From Vicinamibacteraceae bacterium (lineage in GTDB: Bacteria; Acidobacteriota; Vicinamibacteria; Marinacidobacterales; Marinacidobacteraceae), in assembly GCA_012271265.1 (NCBI GenBank), contig JAAXGQ010000043.1, positions 1-54,312 on the forward strand: a stretch of 54,312 bases of DNA, written 5' to 3'. Positions 5,612 through 51,742 of the stretch are shown piece after piece. Positions within the stretch are counted from its first letter, which is position 1. Every line of letters begins with the position of its first letter. The notes beneath the pieces are model-generated. The model saw only the letters and a list, made by a program, of their open reading frames with translations, did no database searches and was not told the origin of the DNA. The position numbers and the translations under genes are program-made.

Positions 5612-5620
5612 CCGCCCCAG

Positions 5621-5722
5621 GGAGCGCCGGCGTCCTCGCCGGCCCGCGCCGCACTCCCGTCAGGCTCTTCGCACCTTCGGGGGAGCGACGGGCTCTCGGC
5701 GCTGGAGCGCCGGCGTGCTCGC
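5621..5722. repeat. Hairpin repeat, one full and one degraded copy
   Basis: A full copy begins GGAGC at 5621, with stem GCCGGCG at 5626-5632, loop TCCT and stem CGCCGGC at 5637-5643, followed by CGCGCCGC. A second, degraded copy (GGAGCGCCGGCGTGCTCGC) occupies 5704-5722 and no longer forms the same hairpin. The pair lies between the stop of the Tat lipoprotein gene and the 3' end of the methyltransferase gene. Apart from these copies I see nothing else in 5612-5825. Confidence 0.65.
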
Positions 5723-5825: not shown

Positions 5826-7583
5826 CTACAGGAGGAGCGGATCCGGCGCCACCTCGTGTCCGGTGTTGTACACGTTCATCATTGCCGGCAGCCGAGGTCG
5901 CCCCTCTCGGCCCTTCCCCCTGTTCAGCCACTCCTCGATACACCAGATCTGCAGCCGACGAAAGACGGTGCCGTCGCTGGACTCGAACCGACCCATCTCC
6001 TGGGCCGCCGTCATCATTCCCGACGTTATCGCCTTCTTGCGGAGGACGACGAACACCCCCGCTGCGGCGTTCCTGGACCGGATCACATCGCGAAAGGCAC
6101 GGACCTGCTCAACCCCGACGTTCCGACCGCTCTTCACTTCAGCGAGCACGAGATTGCGCCCTTCCTTCGTCTTGTAAAGGAGGCACCCTACGCCATCCTT
6201 GCCTCCGTCTCCGCCCTTCTTTTCGTTGGGGACCAACCCGGGCAGCTGCGTAATGGCCCAGGACTCGAACTGGCCGCGACCCCCCTTGGCAGCAGCCATG
6301 AACTTGGCGGTCTCGTAGTCCACCGGGATGCCGTCCGTCTTCACGTTCCAGATGTTGAAGCGATTCAGGCGCTCCTTCATTACGGTTTCGATGGCAAAGG
6401 ATGAAATGTCGACTCCCGCCCAACGGCGGCCCTCCTCTTCAGCAGCATGGATGGTCGTGCCGCAGCCGCAGAAAGGATCAAGCACAAGATCCCGCGGATT
6501 CGTTGTAGCCAGGATCAGGCGTTTTAGGAGGGCGATCGGCTTCTGGGTCGGGTAGCCCATCTTCTGGACGTCGTTCGCCTCGATCCTGCTGAAGTCCGTG
6601 AACACGTCCGTCACGGCCTTCCCCGTCGTGGACTTCCAGAAGCGCTTGAGTCTTGGTATTCCGCGTCCGTCCCTGGGCCAATAGATCAGACCCGCCGCGT
6701 CGAGAGCATCCAGCCGCTCATGGACTGTCGAGCCGGGCATGGGCCAGTCCGGCACGAGAGCGTGCCTGATGATGAAGTGGTACATGCCTCCCTGCGGGGA
6801 GGTAGGGGTCCGCCAGTGATTCTTGCCGCCAGGTCCCGGACTGATTCCTCGCCACGGCTGACCGGACTCACCAGTGCGGCGGCCGTCTGCTGTCAGATTG
6901 TCGGCGCTCCATACTCCGAGATGGGGCCGGTCGTCGTCCATGTGCCTGTACTGCGTCCTCCTGTTCTTCAGGTCCTGTTCGGTGTTCCTCGGCAGGAACT
7001 GACGATTCCAGGTTACGGGCCCTCCCCCCCTGTAGAACAGAATGATGTCGTGGACCCGCCCGAATCTGTTGCCGTCGTTTCTGCTTGTGGTCCGCCGCCA
7101 CACGATCTCGTTCAGGAAGTTGCGCTCGCCGAAGATCGCGTCCATGACTATCTTCAGGTAGTGGCTCATCGTGGGATCGCAATGGAGGAAAATCGAGCCG
7201 TTGCGCTTCAGCAGCACCTTGCACTCGAGCAGCCTTTCCGCCATGTAGGCGAGATAGGCGAACCGGCGCTTGCGCCTGAGGATGGTCTCGAGGCCCGCGA
7301 TGGCGTCGCGTAGATCCTCGGGCACACTCGCCCTGTTCATGAGTTGCCAGACTCGCTCATCATCAGCTTCGCCCCAGTTCCAGGTGTCGCTGAATGCGAG
7401 AAGCTGAGCGTTGCGCCTGGGGATCGCCTCAAAGATGATGTTGTAGTTCTGGTTCGAGTTGAAGGGCGGGTCCAGGTAGATCATGTCCACCTGATCTTCG
7501 CCCCATCGGCGCATTACATCGAGGCAGTCCCCGTAATAGAGAGTGCGGTCGGCCAGCGGGCCGCGAAACGGAGTGAGGTCCAT
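5826..7583 (-). CDS. Beta-class DNA methyltransferase fused to a C-terminal PD-(D/E)XK nuclease-like domain
   Basis: This 585-residue protein is predicted to be an adenine-N6 or cytosine-N4 DNA methyltransferase. The catalytic motif IV is DPPF at residues 38-41. The AdoMet-binding motif I is DPFCGCGTT near 368-376. The order IV before I defines the beta class. After a linker, residues ~430-570 hold GGDGGKDGVG (Asp near 463) and LAEVKSG (Glu-x-Lys near 482-484), matching the D...ExK core of Mrr-like nucleases. The polypeptide could therefore both modify and cut DNA. No separate specificity, helicase or nuclease gene lies next to it. The DNA here is clearly less G+C-rich (about 34 G+C per 60 bases in two lines counted by hand, against about 42 in an ordinary line) and the protein is rich in Asn, Lys and Ile, which suggests horizontal transfer. 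Confidence 0.88.
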   Translation of the reverse strand: MDLTPFRGPLADRTLYYGDCLDVMRRWGEDQVDMIYLDPPFNSNQNYNIIFEAIPRRNAQLLAFSDTWNWGEADDERVWQLMNRASVPEDLRDAIAGLETILRRKRRFAYLAYMAERLLECKVLLKRNGSIFLHCDPTMSHYLKIVMDAIFGERNFLNEIVWRRTTSRNDGNRFGRVHDIILFYRGGGPVTWNRQFLPRNTEQDLKNRRTQYRHMDDDRPHLGVWSADNLTADGRRTGESGQPWRGISPGPGGKNHWRTPTSPQGGMYHFIIRHALVPDWPMPGSTVHERLDALDAAGLIYWPRDGRGIPRLKRFWKSTTGKAVTDVFTDFSRIEANDVQKMGYPTQKPIALLKRLILATTNPRDLVLDPFCGCGTTIHAAEEEGRRWAGVDISSFAIETVMKERLNRFNIWNVKTDGIPVDYETAKFMAAAKGGRGQFESWAITQLPGLVPNEKKGGDGGKDGVGCLLYKTKEGRNLVLAEVKSGRNVGVEQVRAFRDVIRSRNAAAGVFVVLRKKAITSGMMTAAQEMGRFESSDGTVFRRLQIWCIEEWLNRGKGREGRPRLPAMMNVYNTGHEVAPDPLLL

Positions 7584-8049: not shown

Positions 8050-8922
8050 ATGATGCGAAGTGCCGCTTTCGGGGTGTCCCGGAGTTCGCCCAGGCCGGGT
8101 CGGGGAGCGCGCTCTTCGGCGGTCCTGGTTCTACTCGCGCTCGGCGCCTGCAGTCCGCCGGCTCCCCGGGAGCTGGCGGCGTGGGACCGGAGCGACGAGG
8201 GGAACCGCGCCCGGATCGACCACGGCGCCTGGCAGGAAATCCTCGAGGCCTACGTGGCGGCGGACCCGAGCGGCGTCCACCTCGTCGACTACGCCGGCCT
8301 TGCCGGAAACGAAGCGGAACGGACGCGTCTCGACGGCTACGTGGGGTCACTGGAGGCGGTCGACCCCCGCGAGTACTCCCGGGCCGAACAGATGGCCTAC
8401 TGGATCAACTTCTACAACGCGCTGACCGTCAAGGTCGTGGTGGACGCCTACCCGGTGGACAGCATCCGCGACATTCACGAAGGCGTCGTCCCCTACACCG
8501 GCCCGTGGGACGACGCGCACGCCCGCGTCGCGGGTCAGGACCTGACGCTCAACGACATGGAGCACGGCATCCTGCGCCCCATCTGGCAGGACCCCCGGAT
8601 CCATTACGCGGTCAACTGCGCCGCCCTGAGCTGTCCCAACCTGCTCCTGACCGCGTTCACGGCGGAAAACACCGAGGCGCTGCTCGAGGCGGGCGCCGTC
8701 GCCTACGTGAACAGCACCCGGGGGGTGGACGTGGTGGACGAGGATCTGATCATCCTCTCCAGCATCTACGACTGGTACGCCGTGGACTTCGGCGAAACGG
8801 AAGCCGACGTGATCGCCCACCTCCAGGTTTACGCCGACGACGAGCTGGGGGCGTTTCTCGCGGACTTCGGCGGCGCGATCGATTACGACTACGACTGGAC
8901 TCTCAACCGGCAGGCTCCCTGA
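8050..8922 (+). CDS. DUF547 domain lipoprotein
   Basis: The product has 290 residues from the ATG at 8050; a second ATG follows at 8053. The N-terminus is basic, then hydrophobic (SSAVLVLLALGAC), with a lipobox Cys at residue 34, so it should be a lipid-anchored protein. The rest is a DUF547 domain, recognised by QMAYWINFYNALTVKVVVDAYP, the DIEH-like LNDMEHGILRP and YAVNCAALSCPNL. The molecular role of DUF547 is not established. The open frame extends to 7861, but only the 8050/8053 start puts a signal peptide at the N-terminus. It is followed at 8942 by a large nested inverted repeat. Confidence 0.86.
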   Translation: MMRSAAFGVSRSSPRPGRGARSSAVLVLLALGACSPPAPRELAAWDRSDEGNRARIDHGAWQEILEAYVAADPSGVHLVDYAGLAGNEAERTRLDGYVGSLEAVDPREYSRAEQMAYWINFYNALTVKVVVDAYPVDSIRDIHEGVVPYTGPWDDAHARVAGQDLTLNDMEHGILRPIWQDPRIHYAVNCAALSCPNLLLTAFTAENTEALLEAGAVAYVNSTRGVDVVDEDLIILSSIYDWYAVDFGETEADVIAHLQVYADDELGAFLADFGGAIDYDYDWTLNRQAP

Positions 8923-8941
8923 GGCGCCCGCCTCGCCGCCG

Positions 8942-9051
8942 CGACGGTGAACACCCCGGGAACAGGGTGAAGCGGCATTCCAGGCGGCAAGGCGGTGTTG
9001 CTGCGTTGCGTTCCGCCTTGTCAGCCACGCGCCTGTTCCCGGCCACCGTCG
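8942..9051. repeat. Nested inverted repeat (~110 bases)
   Basis: Three pairs of arms are nested. CGACGGTG (8942-8949) pairs with CACCGTCG (9044-9051). CCGGGAACAGG (8956-8966) pairs with CCTGTTCCCGG (9032-9042). GGCAAGGCGG (8986-8995) pairs with CCGCCTTGTC (9013-9022), with one G-T pair. The loop between the innermost arms is 17 bases. The structure lies in the 306-base gap between the DUF547 and M28 genes (8923-9228), starting 20 bases after the DUF547 stop. There is no T-run, so it is not a classical Rho-independent terminator. It could be a mobile palindromic element or a structured RNA. Confidence 0.6.
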
Positions 9052-9216
9052 GTGCTTCCGCCACCTCATCCACCGGCTGTGGAGCTGGAGCCGGACTCCT
9101 TTCCTTCGGTGTCGGCGCGCCGACATTGCGCCGTCGCGAATGAGCGCGATCGGGGCTGTTCCGATCGTCTTCTCTGCCGGCGCCTGGACGCAGGACCCCC
9201 GGGGCTCCGCGCCAAG

Positions 9217-9222
9217 TACGAT
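9217..9222 (+). promoter_or_regulatory. -10-like box, M28 peptidase gene
   Basis: TACGAT lies six bases before the ATG at 9229. A transcript starting about seven bases after the box would begin at the start codon, i.e. be leaderless. No Shine-Dalgarno sequence is visible and no convincing -35 box was found. Confidence 0.4.
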
Positions 9223-9228
9223 ACGTGC

Positions 9229-11430
9229 ATGACGCGTCTCCTCCTCCGTTCCTGCTCTCGCCTCGCCCTGGCCTGCCTGCTCCTGGCCGGCGCCGCCCCG
9301 CTCGCGTCCGCCCTCCAGAACGCGGATCCCGCCCGGGGTTTCCTGGACGGCCAGTGGGATCGCCAGCAGGAGATCGAAGCCATGTTCCGGGCGGTGCCCG
9401 ATCCGGCCCGGCTCCGGGAGTACATGGAGTACATGAGCGAGGAGCCGCACATCGCCGGACTCGGCCGGGGCAGCCTCCGGGTCGCGGAGTACGCGGTGGA
9501 GAAGTTCCGTTCGTTCGGCCTCGACGCCGCGATCGAAGAGACCGAGGCTCTCATGCCGCTTCCGGTCGAACGCCATGTGGAGGTGCTGGGGCCCGAGCCC
9601 TACACGCTGCGGCTCACGGAGCCGGAGGTCCCGGAAGACGAGGACACCTTCGACGAAGGCCAGCTTTCTCCCTACAACGCCTTTGCCGCCGACGGAGACG
9701 CAACGGGCGAGGTGGTCTACGTGAACTACGGGATTCCCGAGGACTACGAGAAGCTCGCCGACCTCGGGATTTCCGTGGAGGGGAAGATCGTGCTGGCCCG
9801 CTACGGGCGGAGCTGGCGCGGCATCAAGGCGAAGCTCGCGCAGGAAAACGGGGCGCGGGGCGCCCTCATGTACTCGGATCCGGCAGACGATGGCTATTAC
9901 CAGGGCCTCACCTATCCCGAAGGGCCGTACCGTCCGCAATGGGGCGTCCAGACCGGTTCGATCCTCGACATGCCGGTCCGTCCCGGCGATCCGCTGACTC
10001 CCGGCTGGGGCGCGAAGGAGGACCGGGAGAAGCTGACCCGGGAGACGGCCGGGACGCTCGTCCGGATTCCGGTGCTGCCGATCTCGTGGGGGGACGCGCT
10101 TCCCATCCTCGAACAGCTCCGGGGCACGGCGGCTCCGAACGACGACTGGAAGGGAGCCCTGCCGATCACCTACCACATCGGCCCCGGGCCGGCGACGGTG
10201 CGGATACGCACCGTGAACGACTGGCAGGTGCGTCCGATCTACAACGTGGTCGCGCGGATCGAGGGCTCCACCTGGCCGGACCAGTGGATCGTCCACGGCA
10301 ACCACCATGATGCCTGGTGCAACGGCGCCATGGATCCGATCAGCGGCGCCGTCCAGCTCATGGAGACCGCCCGGGGTTTCGGCGAGCTGCTCAAGGCAGG
10401 CATCCGTCCCGCCCGCACCGTCATCTTCGCTCTCTGGGACGCCGAGGAGTGGGGGCTCCTGGGGTCCACGGAGTGGGCCGAAACCCACCGCGAGGACCTC
10501 GGGGAGAAGGGCGTCGTCTACATCAATACCGACAGCAACGGAAAGGGCTGGCTCGGCATGGCCGGGAGCCACACCCTGGAGCGCTTCCTCAACGAGGTGG
10601 CGCGGGACATCGAGGACCCGGAACGAGGGGTCAGCGTCTACGAGGCGGCGCGCGCCCGGCGGCTCGAGACCGCGGCGAATCCGGACGCCAGGCAGCAGAT
10701 CGAGCAGAGCGATGACCTGCGGCTCGCGGCGCTGGGGTCCGGGTCGGACTACACCGTCTTCCTCGACCACCTCACCATGGCCTCGCTGAATCTGGGCTTC
10801 GGGGGCGACAGTCCGGGCGGTGTCTACCACTCCGCCTACGACACTCTCCACTGGTACCTGACGTTCGCCGACGGCGAGTTCGTCTTCGGCCGGGCCCTGT
10901 CGCAACTCGTCGGCACCGCCATCCTTCGCCTCGCCAACGCGGCGGTGCTGCCGTTCGGGTTCACGGCCCTGGCCGACGCCATGAGCGGTTATGTCGAGGA
11001 GATCCGCGAAACCCACGCAGCGATGGAGTCCCCCGACGCAATCGACTTCGAGTCCCTCGAAGCGGCATTGGCGGCCCTTGAGGCGGCCGGCGAGGGATAT
11101 GAAGAAGCGCTTGCCGGGCTGAGCGCCGTCGAGGCCGAGGGGGTTCTGGGCAGCGAAGCGGCCGTCCAGCTCAACCAGTTGCTCTACACCACCGAGCGGA
11201 GGCTCGGATACGAGGAGGGGTTGCCCAACCGGGAGTGGTTCCGCCACCAAGTGTACGCGCCCGGCCTCTACACCGGGTACGGGGTCAAGACCATTCCCGG
11301 TGTCCGGGAGGGCATCGAGGAAGAGGAATGGGATGCGGCCCGGTTCTACGTCCAGGTCGTCAGCCAGGCGCTCGGTGATCTCACCGGCCAGATCCAGGAG
11401 GCCGAACGGATCCTCGCCGACCTTCGCTGA
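9229..11430 (+). CDS. M28 family metallopeptidase, glutamate carboxypeptidase II-like, secreted
   Basis: The 733-residue product is a two-zinc exopeptidase of family M28B, similar in length and layout to glutamate carboxypeptidase II. Residues 1-27 form a Sec signal (LLLRSCSRLALACLLLAGAAP...). A protease-associated domain occupies roughly residues 150-260. The metal-site motifs are GNHHDAW with zinc ligand H359, the catalytic/ligand pair in DAEEWGLLGS, NTDSNGKG, and the late His in YHSAYDTLHW. The C-terminal third fits the transferrin-receptor-like dimerisation domain. The open frame reaches back to 8995, but only 9229 gives a signal peptide. It likely trims C-terminal residues from extracellular peptides; substrate not known. 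Confidence 0.93.
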   Translation: MTRLLLRSCSRLALACLLLAGAAPLASALQNADPARGFLDGQWDRQQEIEAMFRAVPDPARLREYMEYMSEEPHIAGLGRGSLRVAEYAVEKFRSFGLDAAIEETEALMPLPVERHVEVLGPEPYTLRLTEPEVPEDEDTFDEGQLSPYNAFAADGDATGEVVYVNYGIPEDYEKLADLGISVEGKIVLARYGRSWRGIKAKLAQENGARGALMYSDPADDGYYQGLTYPEGPYRPQWGVQTGSILDMPVRPGDPLTPGWGAKEDREKLTRETAGTLVRIPVLPISWGDALPILEQLRGTAAPNDDWKGALPITYHIGPGPATVRIRTVNDWQVRPIYNVVARIEGSTWPDQWIVHGNHHDAWCNGAMDPISGAVQLMETARGFGELLKAGIRPARTVIFALWDAEEWGLLGSTEWAETHREDLGEKGVVYINTDSNGKGWLGMAGSHTLERFLNEVARDIEDPERGVSVYEAARARRLETAANPDARQQIEQSDDLRLAALGSGSDYTVFLDHLTMASLNLGFGGDSPGGVYHSAYDTLHWYLTFADGEFVFGRALSQLVGTAILRLANAAVLPFGFTALADAMSGYVEEIRETHAAMESPDAIDFESLEAALAALEAAGEGYEEALAGLSAVEAEGVLGSEAAVQLNQLLYTTERRLGYEEGLPNREWFRHQVYAPGLYTGYGVKTIPGVREGIEEEEWDAARFYVQVVSQALGDLTGQIQEAERILADLR

Positions 11431-27532: not shown

Positions 27533-27650
27533 GAATTCATGGCTGGCAGGGTATCGTGAGGCGGCTCAGCGCCCTCTCTCCGGGCCTGCAGCCGCCCGAC
27601 CGCAATCCGCCGTTCCGCGGGCGCCCGGCTGGACCATGGAGCGCCGCCCC

Positions 27651-27760
27651 TGGAGCGCCGGCGTCCTCGCCGGCCTGCGCCGCACCTGCGCTCCCTCAGC
27701 CAGTCACCTGCCGACCGCGCCGGCCCATGGAGCGCCGGCGTCCTCGCCGGCCTGCGCCGC
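27651..27760. repeat. Two identical 33-base hairpin repeats
   Basis: Identical 33-base copies lie at 27651-27683 and 27728-27760, 77 bases apart. Each starts TGGAGC, contains stem GCCGGCG, loop TCCT and stem CGCCGGC, and ends CTGCGCCGC. They belong to the same family as 1-56 and 5621-5652. Confidence 0.75.
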
Positions 27761-27827
27761 TGGGGAGGTCCACCGGCCAACCTGCTTCCGCAGGGTCGGG
27801 AGACCGGCGTTCGGTGGTGGTGACTGA

Positions 27828-50993: not shown

Positions 50994-51742
50994 AGACGCC
51001 CCGCCTCCGCACCCGCCGCGGGGTCTTCCTGGTTCCCGCGCTGTTCACCGTCGCGAATATCTTCTTCGGGTTCTTCTCGATCGTGCAGAGCATCCGCGGC
51101 GAGTTCGCCGACGCGGCGCTGGCCATCGGGTTCGCGATCCTCGCCGACCTCGTGGACGGGAGGGTGGCCCGCTTCGCCGGGGCGACGAGCCGGTTCGGCA
51201 AGGAGCTCGACTCCCTGGCCGACATGGGTTCGTTCGGGATCGCTCCCGCGGTGCTCGCCTGGGCGTGGGTGCTCCACGCCTGGCCCCGCGTCGGCTGGCT
51301 GGTCGCCGCACTTTTCTCGGTCTGCGCCGCGGTGCGCCTCGCGCGGTTCAACGTGGGCCGGATCAGCAGCGACCCCCGCTACTACATCGGCCTCTCCTCG
51401 CCGGCGGCGGCCGCCGTCGTCGGCGCCGTCGTCTACTGGCATCCCGAGCCGCCGGGCCCGGGTGTCCCCGAGGCAGCGGTCCTGTTCGGCATCCTGGGGT
51501 TGGCGCTCATGATGAACAGTCCGGTGCGCTATCTCAGTTTCAAGGGATTCGCGACGCGGAACCCGCACTCCCACCGGGCGCTGGTCATCGTGGCCGTGTT
51601 CATCGTCGCTGCGCTCGCCGAACCGGTGGCCGTCTTCGCGATTCTGGCCGGCGGTTACTTTCTGTCGCCGCTGTTTCCGGTCGTCGCGAGACTCGTCCGC
51701 CGCACGCCCGCGGCGACCGACGCAACTCCCCCGGTGGACTGA
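50990..51742 (+). CDS. pssA: CDP-diacylglycerol--serine O-phosphatidyltransferase
   Basis: The 250-residue membrane enzyme makes phosphatidylserine, the substrate of Psd encoded just upstream. The signature DLVDGRVARFAGATSRFGKELDSLADMGSFGIAPA is complete and typical of PssA (with SFGIAPA after it). RRGVFLVPALFTVANIFFGF is the usual first helix. ATG 50990 overlaps the psd stop, so the two steps are translationally coupled. Confidence 0.95.
   Translation: MKTPRLRTRRGVFLVPALFTVANIFFGFFSIVQSIRGEFADAALAIGFAILADLVDGRVARFAGATSRFGKELDSLADMGSFGIAPAVLAWAWVLHAWPRVGWLVAALFSVCAAVRLARFNVGRISSDPRYYIGLSSPAAAAVVGAVVYWHPEPPGPGVPEAAVLFGILGLALMMNSPVRYLSFKGFATRNPHSHRALVIVAVFIVAALAEPVAVFAILAGGYFLSPLFPVVARLVRRTPAATDATPPVD

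Follow-up and report, generated by a model that had tools for sequence, protein, structure and literature searches.

The intergenic stretch at positions 8950–9080 of the window, the window being the whole 54,312 nucleotides of Vicinamibacteraceae DNA analysed here, is very probably a non-autonomous palindromic transposable repeat in decayed form, a MITE in the broad sense and comparable to ERIC, Correia/NEMIS and RUP. The element would be moved by a transposase acting in trans, and its fold may have been kept either because the enzyme reads hairpins or because the hairpin matters in the transcript. Copies occur throughout the genome and in related genomes, they share their termini and a fold, and sites that are filled in one species are empty in others.

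The repeat copy in the window

The repeat stands between a DUF547 gene (PF04784; stop at 8922) and an M28 peptidase gene (start at 9229) that additionally contains PA and TFR_dimer domains, these domain assignments being in agreement with the flanking genes named in an earlier note on this DNA. That note had described a nested inverted repeat of three arm pairs at 8942–9051, and the arms are indeed present: CGACGGTG (8942–8949) pairs with CACCGTCG (9044–9051), the 11-base arm CCGGGAACAGG (8956–8966) pairs perfectly with CCTGTTCCCGG (9032–9042), and the inner arms, GGCAAGGCGG from 8986 and CCGCCTTGTC from 9013, include one G-T pair. Since a perfect 11-bp arm pair was reached in 2 of 300 shuffles and 4 of 200 shuffles folded as well as the region 8930–9065 (−66.5 kcal/mol, z −2.16), the nesting of arms is uncommon but not overwhelming and, taken alone, constitutes a modest oddity. 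The earlier assertion that a T-run is missing and that this is no simple terminator holds, as no terminator-like site (a hairpin followed by a T-run) was found within 8700–9400.

A repeat found across the genome, which this stretch matches, is better evidence of a real feature than the nesting of the arms. An HMM built on 11 further copies of the same genome, from which the window copy was excluded, matches 8950–9080 with 48.0 bits (E 2e-14; model positions 2–150 of 154), with the mild circularity that some of these 11 copies were first detected using the window sequence. A second HMM, comprising 20 copies from relatives and one own copy, matches 9014–9080 more weakly (21.9 bits, E 3.9e-6). 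The feature reported earlier is therefore real, its true edges by HMM match being 8950 and 9080 instead of 8942 and 9051.

On the forward strand, in the orientation of the model, this shortened and diverged copy begins with a left terminal arm (8950–8980), after which 25 bases of the other copies are missing, and ends with the right terminal arm CACCTCATCCACCGGCTG (9062–9079), in which approximately 11 of 18 positions pair, by eye, with the left arm. Extra bases relative to the other copies, near 9033–9041, are found within CCTGTTCCCGG-C-CACCGTCG (9032–9051), which represents the right partners of the two outer arms; this segment mirrors the left edge of the repeat together with its flank, and was seen in none of the 11 copies that make up the HMM alignment. 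As the 11-bp pair is absent from the 11 aligned own-genome copies and the outermost left arm (8942–8949) lies just beyond the element’s edge, the three-arm architecture does not stand as a conserved structure, and the outer arms drawn earlier appear to be private to the window copy.

A loss of 25 bases would have shortened the window copy, and a stretch of its right half would have become a mirror image of the left edge and flank, most simply through template switching at a quasi-palindrome, an event that would account for both the mirrored 9032–9051 and the poor pairing of the termini. By now the copy can probably no longer move, any influence on the transcripts of DUF547 or M28 is probably incidental, and, being decayed, it is of little further interest in itself. 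No empty site was found for it because the DUF547-M28 junction is not conserved: a DUF547 match stood beside M28 in none of the 10 loci examined, of 11 from the M28 search. The eight close M28 relatives (80–84% identity) derive from Acidobacteria/Acidobacteriota metagenome-assembled genomes.

Beside the repeat, at 9082–9105 on the reverse strand, a sequence was noted that may be what remains of the 3′ end of a gene resembling outer-membrane receptors, 19 of 23 bases being identical, by eye, to the intact neighbour of another own-genome copy (L011), where a 474-aa frame with a likeness, by eye, to an outer-membrane receptor ends ...ILRIGVRFQF at the element. Another partial copy (G000:C147:75253-75309) is present on the window’s own contig, outside the window. 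A match within the window at 51032–51055 is probably a chance one inside coding sequence and was not accepted as a copy.

A dispersed repeat family with a conserved fold

The check for further copies in the genome, as recommended in the earlier note, was positive. Using 8930–9065 as a query, nine other matches were obtained in the own genome (3.4 Mb in 274 contigs) at E ≤ 1e-5, all to the inner and right part, while a better copy yielded at least 43 matches at E ≤ 1; at E ≤ 0.002 there are approximately 26 other places, merged by hand so that fragments up to about 1.2 kb apart count as one; this figure leaves out the window copy, which scored E 0.011 in that search. The intact element is approximately 183 bp in length (the model has 186 columns including target bases) and is too short to hold a transposase gene; it terminates in the inverted repeat ARCAGCCTGTGG, and its copies have the common ends ARCAGCCTGTGGA... 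and ...TCCACAGGCTGYT. Terminal inverted repeats and dispersed copies, two features that define a MITE, were thus both found. Long variants of the own genome (L061, L062, L063, L064 and L065) have their middle filled with tandem arrays of a second repeat, which can set the two ends as much as about 1.2 kb apart; no transposase was seen by eye inside L061, L062, L064 and L065, which contain these arrays.

The element is present in 14 of 21 genomes at E ≤ 0.001, the own genome included. Same-family relatives carry it in nine of nine cases (at least 42, 1, 40, 37, 39, 4, 42, 23 and 43 matches), same-order relatives in three of four (at least 1, 5 and 5) and same-class relatives in one of seven (at least 3), all matches per genome representing lower bounds. 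Across the class, 19 of 149 genomes match at E ≤ 1e-15, and seven of ten distant loci (L239–L248) possess elements of 162–165 bp with the same ends. The 391,594 bases of relative G003 gave 19 HMM hits; leaving aside duplicates on the opposite strand, seven of these are close to full length. Viral contigs yielded no HMM match, three exact 20-mer hits there being dismissed as chance (one lies inside a 588-aa frame), and plasmids and phages yielded no match to one relative’s copy.

For the analysis of ends and structure, 47 full-length copies were counted, defined as HMM hits that start at model position ≤6, reach position ≥180 and have 40 nt or more of sequence to either side. Application of RNAalifold to 39 of these (score >150, 180–190 nt) resulted in 53 pairs, and 96.8% of cells pair as compared to 35.6–44.1% in slid versions. 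Changes on both sides were observed in 22 of the 53 pairs (8.2 ± 1.5 in shuffles) and in 88 cells (shuffled mean 21.0), values that none of 500 shuffles reached and that are inflated by the relatedness of copies; examples are changes from G-C to C-G at columns 19/169 (13 sequences) and 62/76 (14 sequences). This analysis shows that the fold is a long hairpin with side hairpins, kept by compensatory change. The earlier note had proposed mutated, non-compensated arms as a test, which the arms it drew fail and the family’s own arms, being compensated, pass. The conserved fold could act as single-stranded DNA or as RNA.

Filled sites, target and stop codons

Orthologous sites that are occupied in one species are vacant in others, so that the element has moved, and the filled and empty sites associated with MITEs are thereby in evidence. 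The element at G003:C7:44001-44184, a UvrB-like site, is lacking in G001, G004, G005, G007, G008 and G009, where the corresponding position in all six empty counterparts follows a stop codon (TAG in five relatives, TAA in one); 7 to 25 diverged bases adjoin these empty sites, so that the junction is not clean. At locus L154, six relatives are empty at the first site of G003 and four at the second, where G001 has a shortened element oriented as in G003 and the copy in G004 points the opposite way, reflecting either separate insertions or an inversion. The L083 element (of G007) is missing in G001, G004, G005, G006 and G008, and the L087 element (of G005) in G003, G004, G006 and G008, G001 carrying a degraded copy; in all empty cases at these two loci the flank length equals that of the filled site minus the 183-base AR...YT element. 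Three loci, L182 (G002) and L209 and L212 (two G003 loci at L083), are counted here neither as filled nor as empty. The non-autonomous palindromic mobile element that the earlier note had offered among its options is thus supported by dispersed copies, common termini, and filled and empty orthologous sites.

With a net gain of AR...YT, the absence of a target site duplication, a duplication of TA and one of YTAR all fit by length. Among the 47 full-length copies, A is found at 41 left and 42 right ends, the preceding T at only 22 and 33, and the same R stands at both ends in 42 (30 G, 12 A); AR/YT may be read as belonging to the element, and T to the host. YTAR is present at both ends in 16 copies, at one end in 17 and at neither in 14. 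The copies show an element that sits at YTAR-like sites, often inside a stop codon apparently composed of host T and element AR, in such a manner that the gene keeps its stop. An element that itself ends a peptide was considered and rejected, the stop being that of the neighbouring gene.

Of the 94 ends, three were without a frame and 31 passed a coding-like cut-off, which is a composition rule and not a gene finder; among these 31 the stop falls exactly at the boundary in 19, 0–3 nt before it in six more and elsewhere in six. The bias towards stop codons is an observed one, a preference for stop codons as such being putative, and it may be explicable by a YTAR target combined with the loss of harmful insertions. 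CTAG occurs at 79 places across 371 kb of G003, with 23 matches to called stops, the calls covering 72–75% of the sequence. It is a rather doubtful proposition that a class-wide acidobacterial palindromic element would insert in stop codons (T^AR), rebuild them from its terminal AR and thereby spread along gene ends harmlessly, moved by a kind of transposase not yet tied to such repeats.

Candidate mobilisers and kindred repeats

Concerning the source of mobility, a DDE transposase with a target of TA/CTAG (IS630-type) or YTAR (IS5/IS701-type) is a credible mover of such a MITE, albeit one that we would not call probable. IS630 prefers CTAG, and the YTAR/CTAG targets of the element are consistent with such an enzyme. 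The similar repeat RUP is, according to PMC2229807, thought to be moved by IS630-Spn1 at TA. Against this, DDE_3 occurs in two of ten family genomes, the DDE_3 element read in G003 having other ends by eye, and the retention of A at ends where T is not kept argues against a TA duplication. DDE_Tnp_1 occurs in six of ten family genomes and was rejected as mobiliser since no locus has both element ends. Across 37 transposase loci from three Pfam families, one has an element fragment, none has both ends, and no parent transposon with the same ends, such as a MITE would be expected to have, was found; the missing transposase is weak evidence, because draft genomes lose insertion sequences. At L227 (G009), positions 596–1191 contain a transposase gene of the IS630 type, behind which lies a fragment from the right half of the palindromic repeat; this locus was discarded as a parent element and is read instead as an IS630-type element inserted into a repeat copy.

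It is unlikely that the element is a REPIN- or TIR-type repeat moved by the family’s RAYT-like Y1 (HUH) transposase. As with REP/REPIN and the TIR repeats of RAYT/TIRYT genes, the element is palindromic, intergenic and present in many copies, its palindromic ends lie at a YTAR-like tetranucleotide, and Y1_Tnp genes, RAYT-like by eye, are present in ten of ten family genomes; repeats tied to tyrosine transposases, including TIR families flanking Y1 genes, are described from Acidobacteria in PMC3733652. In contrast to these repeats, the element measures approximately 183 bp and not 20–40 bp, and neither of the tags GTAG or CGTC marks one end, the ends being mostly YTAR, with GTAA at 3 of 47 right ends and GTAG at none. 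The element was found at none of the Y1 loci, the ten that were examined for repeats (from nine of the ten family genomes) carrying other short repeats, and relative G019 has at least three element matches yet no Y1 match. The RAYT-like Y1 genes were rejected as mobiliser on the grounds that the element is not beside them.

Another repeat in the window, CATGGAGCGCCGGCGTCCTCGCCGGCC, which is the second, shorter one, occurs at 5615–5722, 27646–27790 and, inverted, at 39–71, and is probably the REP of the own genome’s RAYT-like Y1 gene (L081), because the same core flanks that gene. Elsewhere in the window, the reverse strand at 5826–7583 contains a 585-aa frame that is DNA methyltransferase-like by eye and has an extra C-terminal part.

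We consider it improbable that the repeat is a structured RNA or 3′-UTR element kept for its function, such as mRNA end protection or processing, with dispersal being secondary. The fold is under compensatory change, and in 25 of the 31 coding-like ends the stop coincides with the boundary or precedes it by no more than 3 nt, which would place a hairpin directly behind many genes. Differing presence among species of a single genus, and copies in both orientations at one site, fit a mobile element instead, and CTAG is both rare and often a stop codon anyway, as the counts from G003 illustrate. Searches of Rfam 15 revealed a tRNA elsewhere in the window as the sole match at gathering scores, and no match to any covariance model at E ≤ 1 in eight loci with copies. 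The structured RNA suggested in the earlier note is accordingly without an Rfam counterpart and retains the conserved fold, which would serve RNA or single-stranded DNA alike. A chance inverted repeat, for which the fold being only modestly better than its shuffles might plead, is hardly tenable in view of the end-to-end family match (E 2e-14), although chance may hold for the outermost 8-bp arm pair.

The preferred reading, a palindromic transposable repeat, places the element among known systems. According to PMC2229807, ERIC/IRU (RU-1) of enterobacteria and Correia/NEMIS of Neisseria are non-coding repeats of <200 bp with terminal inverted repeats, TA-type termini, base-paired transcripts and length variants. 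The element is likewise small and non-coding, with inverted ends, TA-type termini, putative hairpin transcripts and length variants; it differs in being of another sequence and G+C-rich, in ends that often lie inside stop codons, and in that its site duplication is putative. RUP of Streptococcus pneumoniae, which likewise has this size, inverted ends, TA-type termini and hairpin transcripts, is a MITE at TA-containing targets that is moved in trans (PMC2229807); the element resembles it as a MITE at TA-containing targets and differs in that no parent insertion sequence was found among the 37 loci. In the literature searches, no title or opening of an abstract was found that describes this acidobacterial repeat.

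Based on these findings, the element is classed as a further small mobile repeat of the ERIC/Correia kind, without a known parent. An odd intergenic palindrome can hereby be assigned to a family of mobile repeats in uncultured acidobacteria, a little-studied group; the family’s consensus and conserved fold now let its copies be recognised, and the species pairs with and without a hairpin at a stop codon provide material for testing an effect on mRNA.
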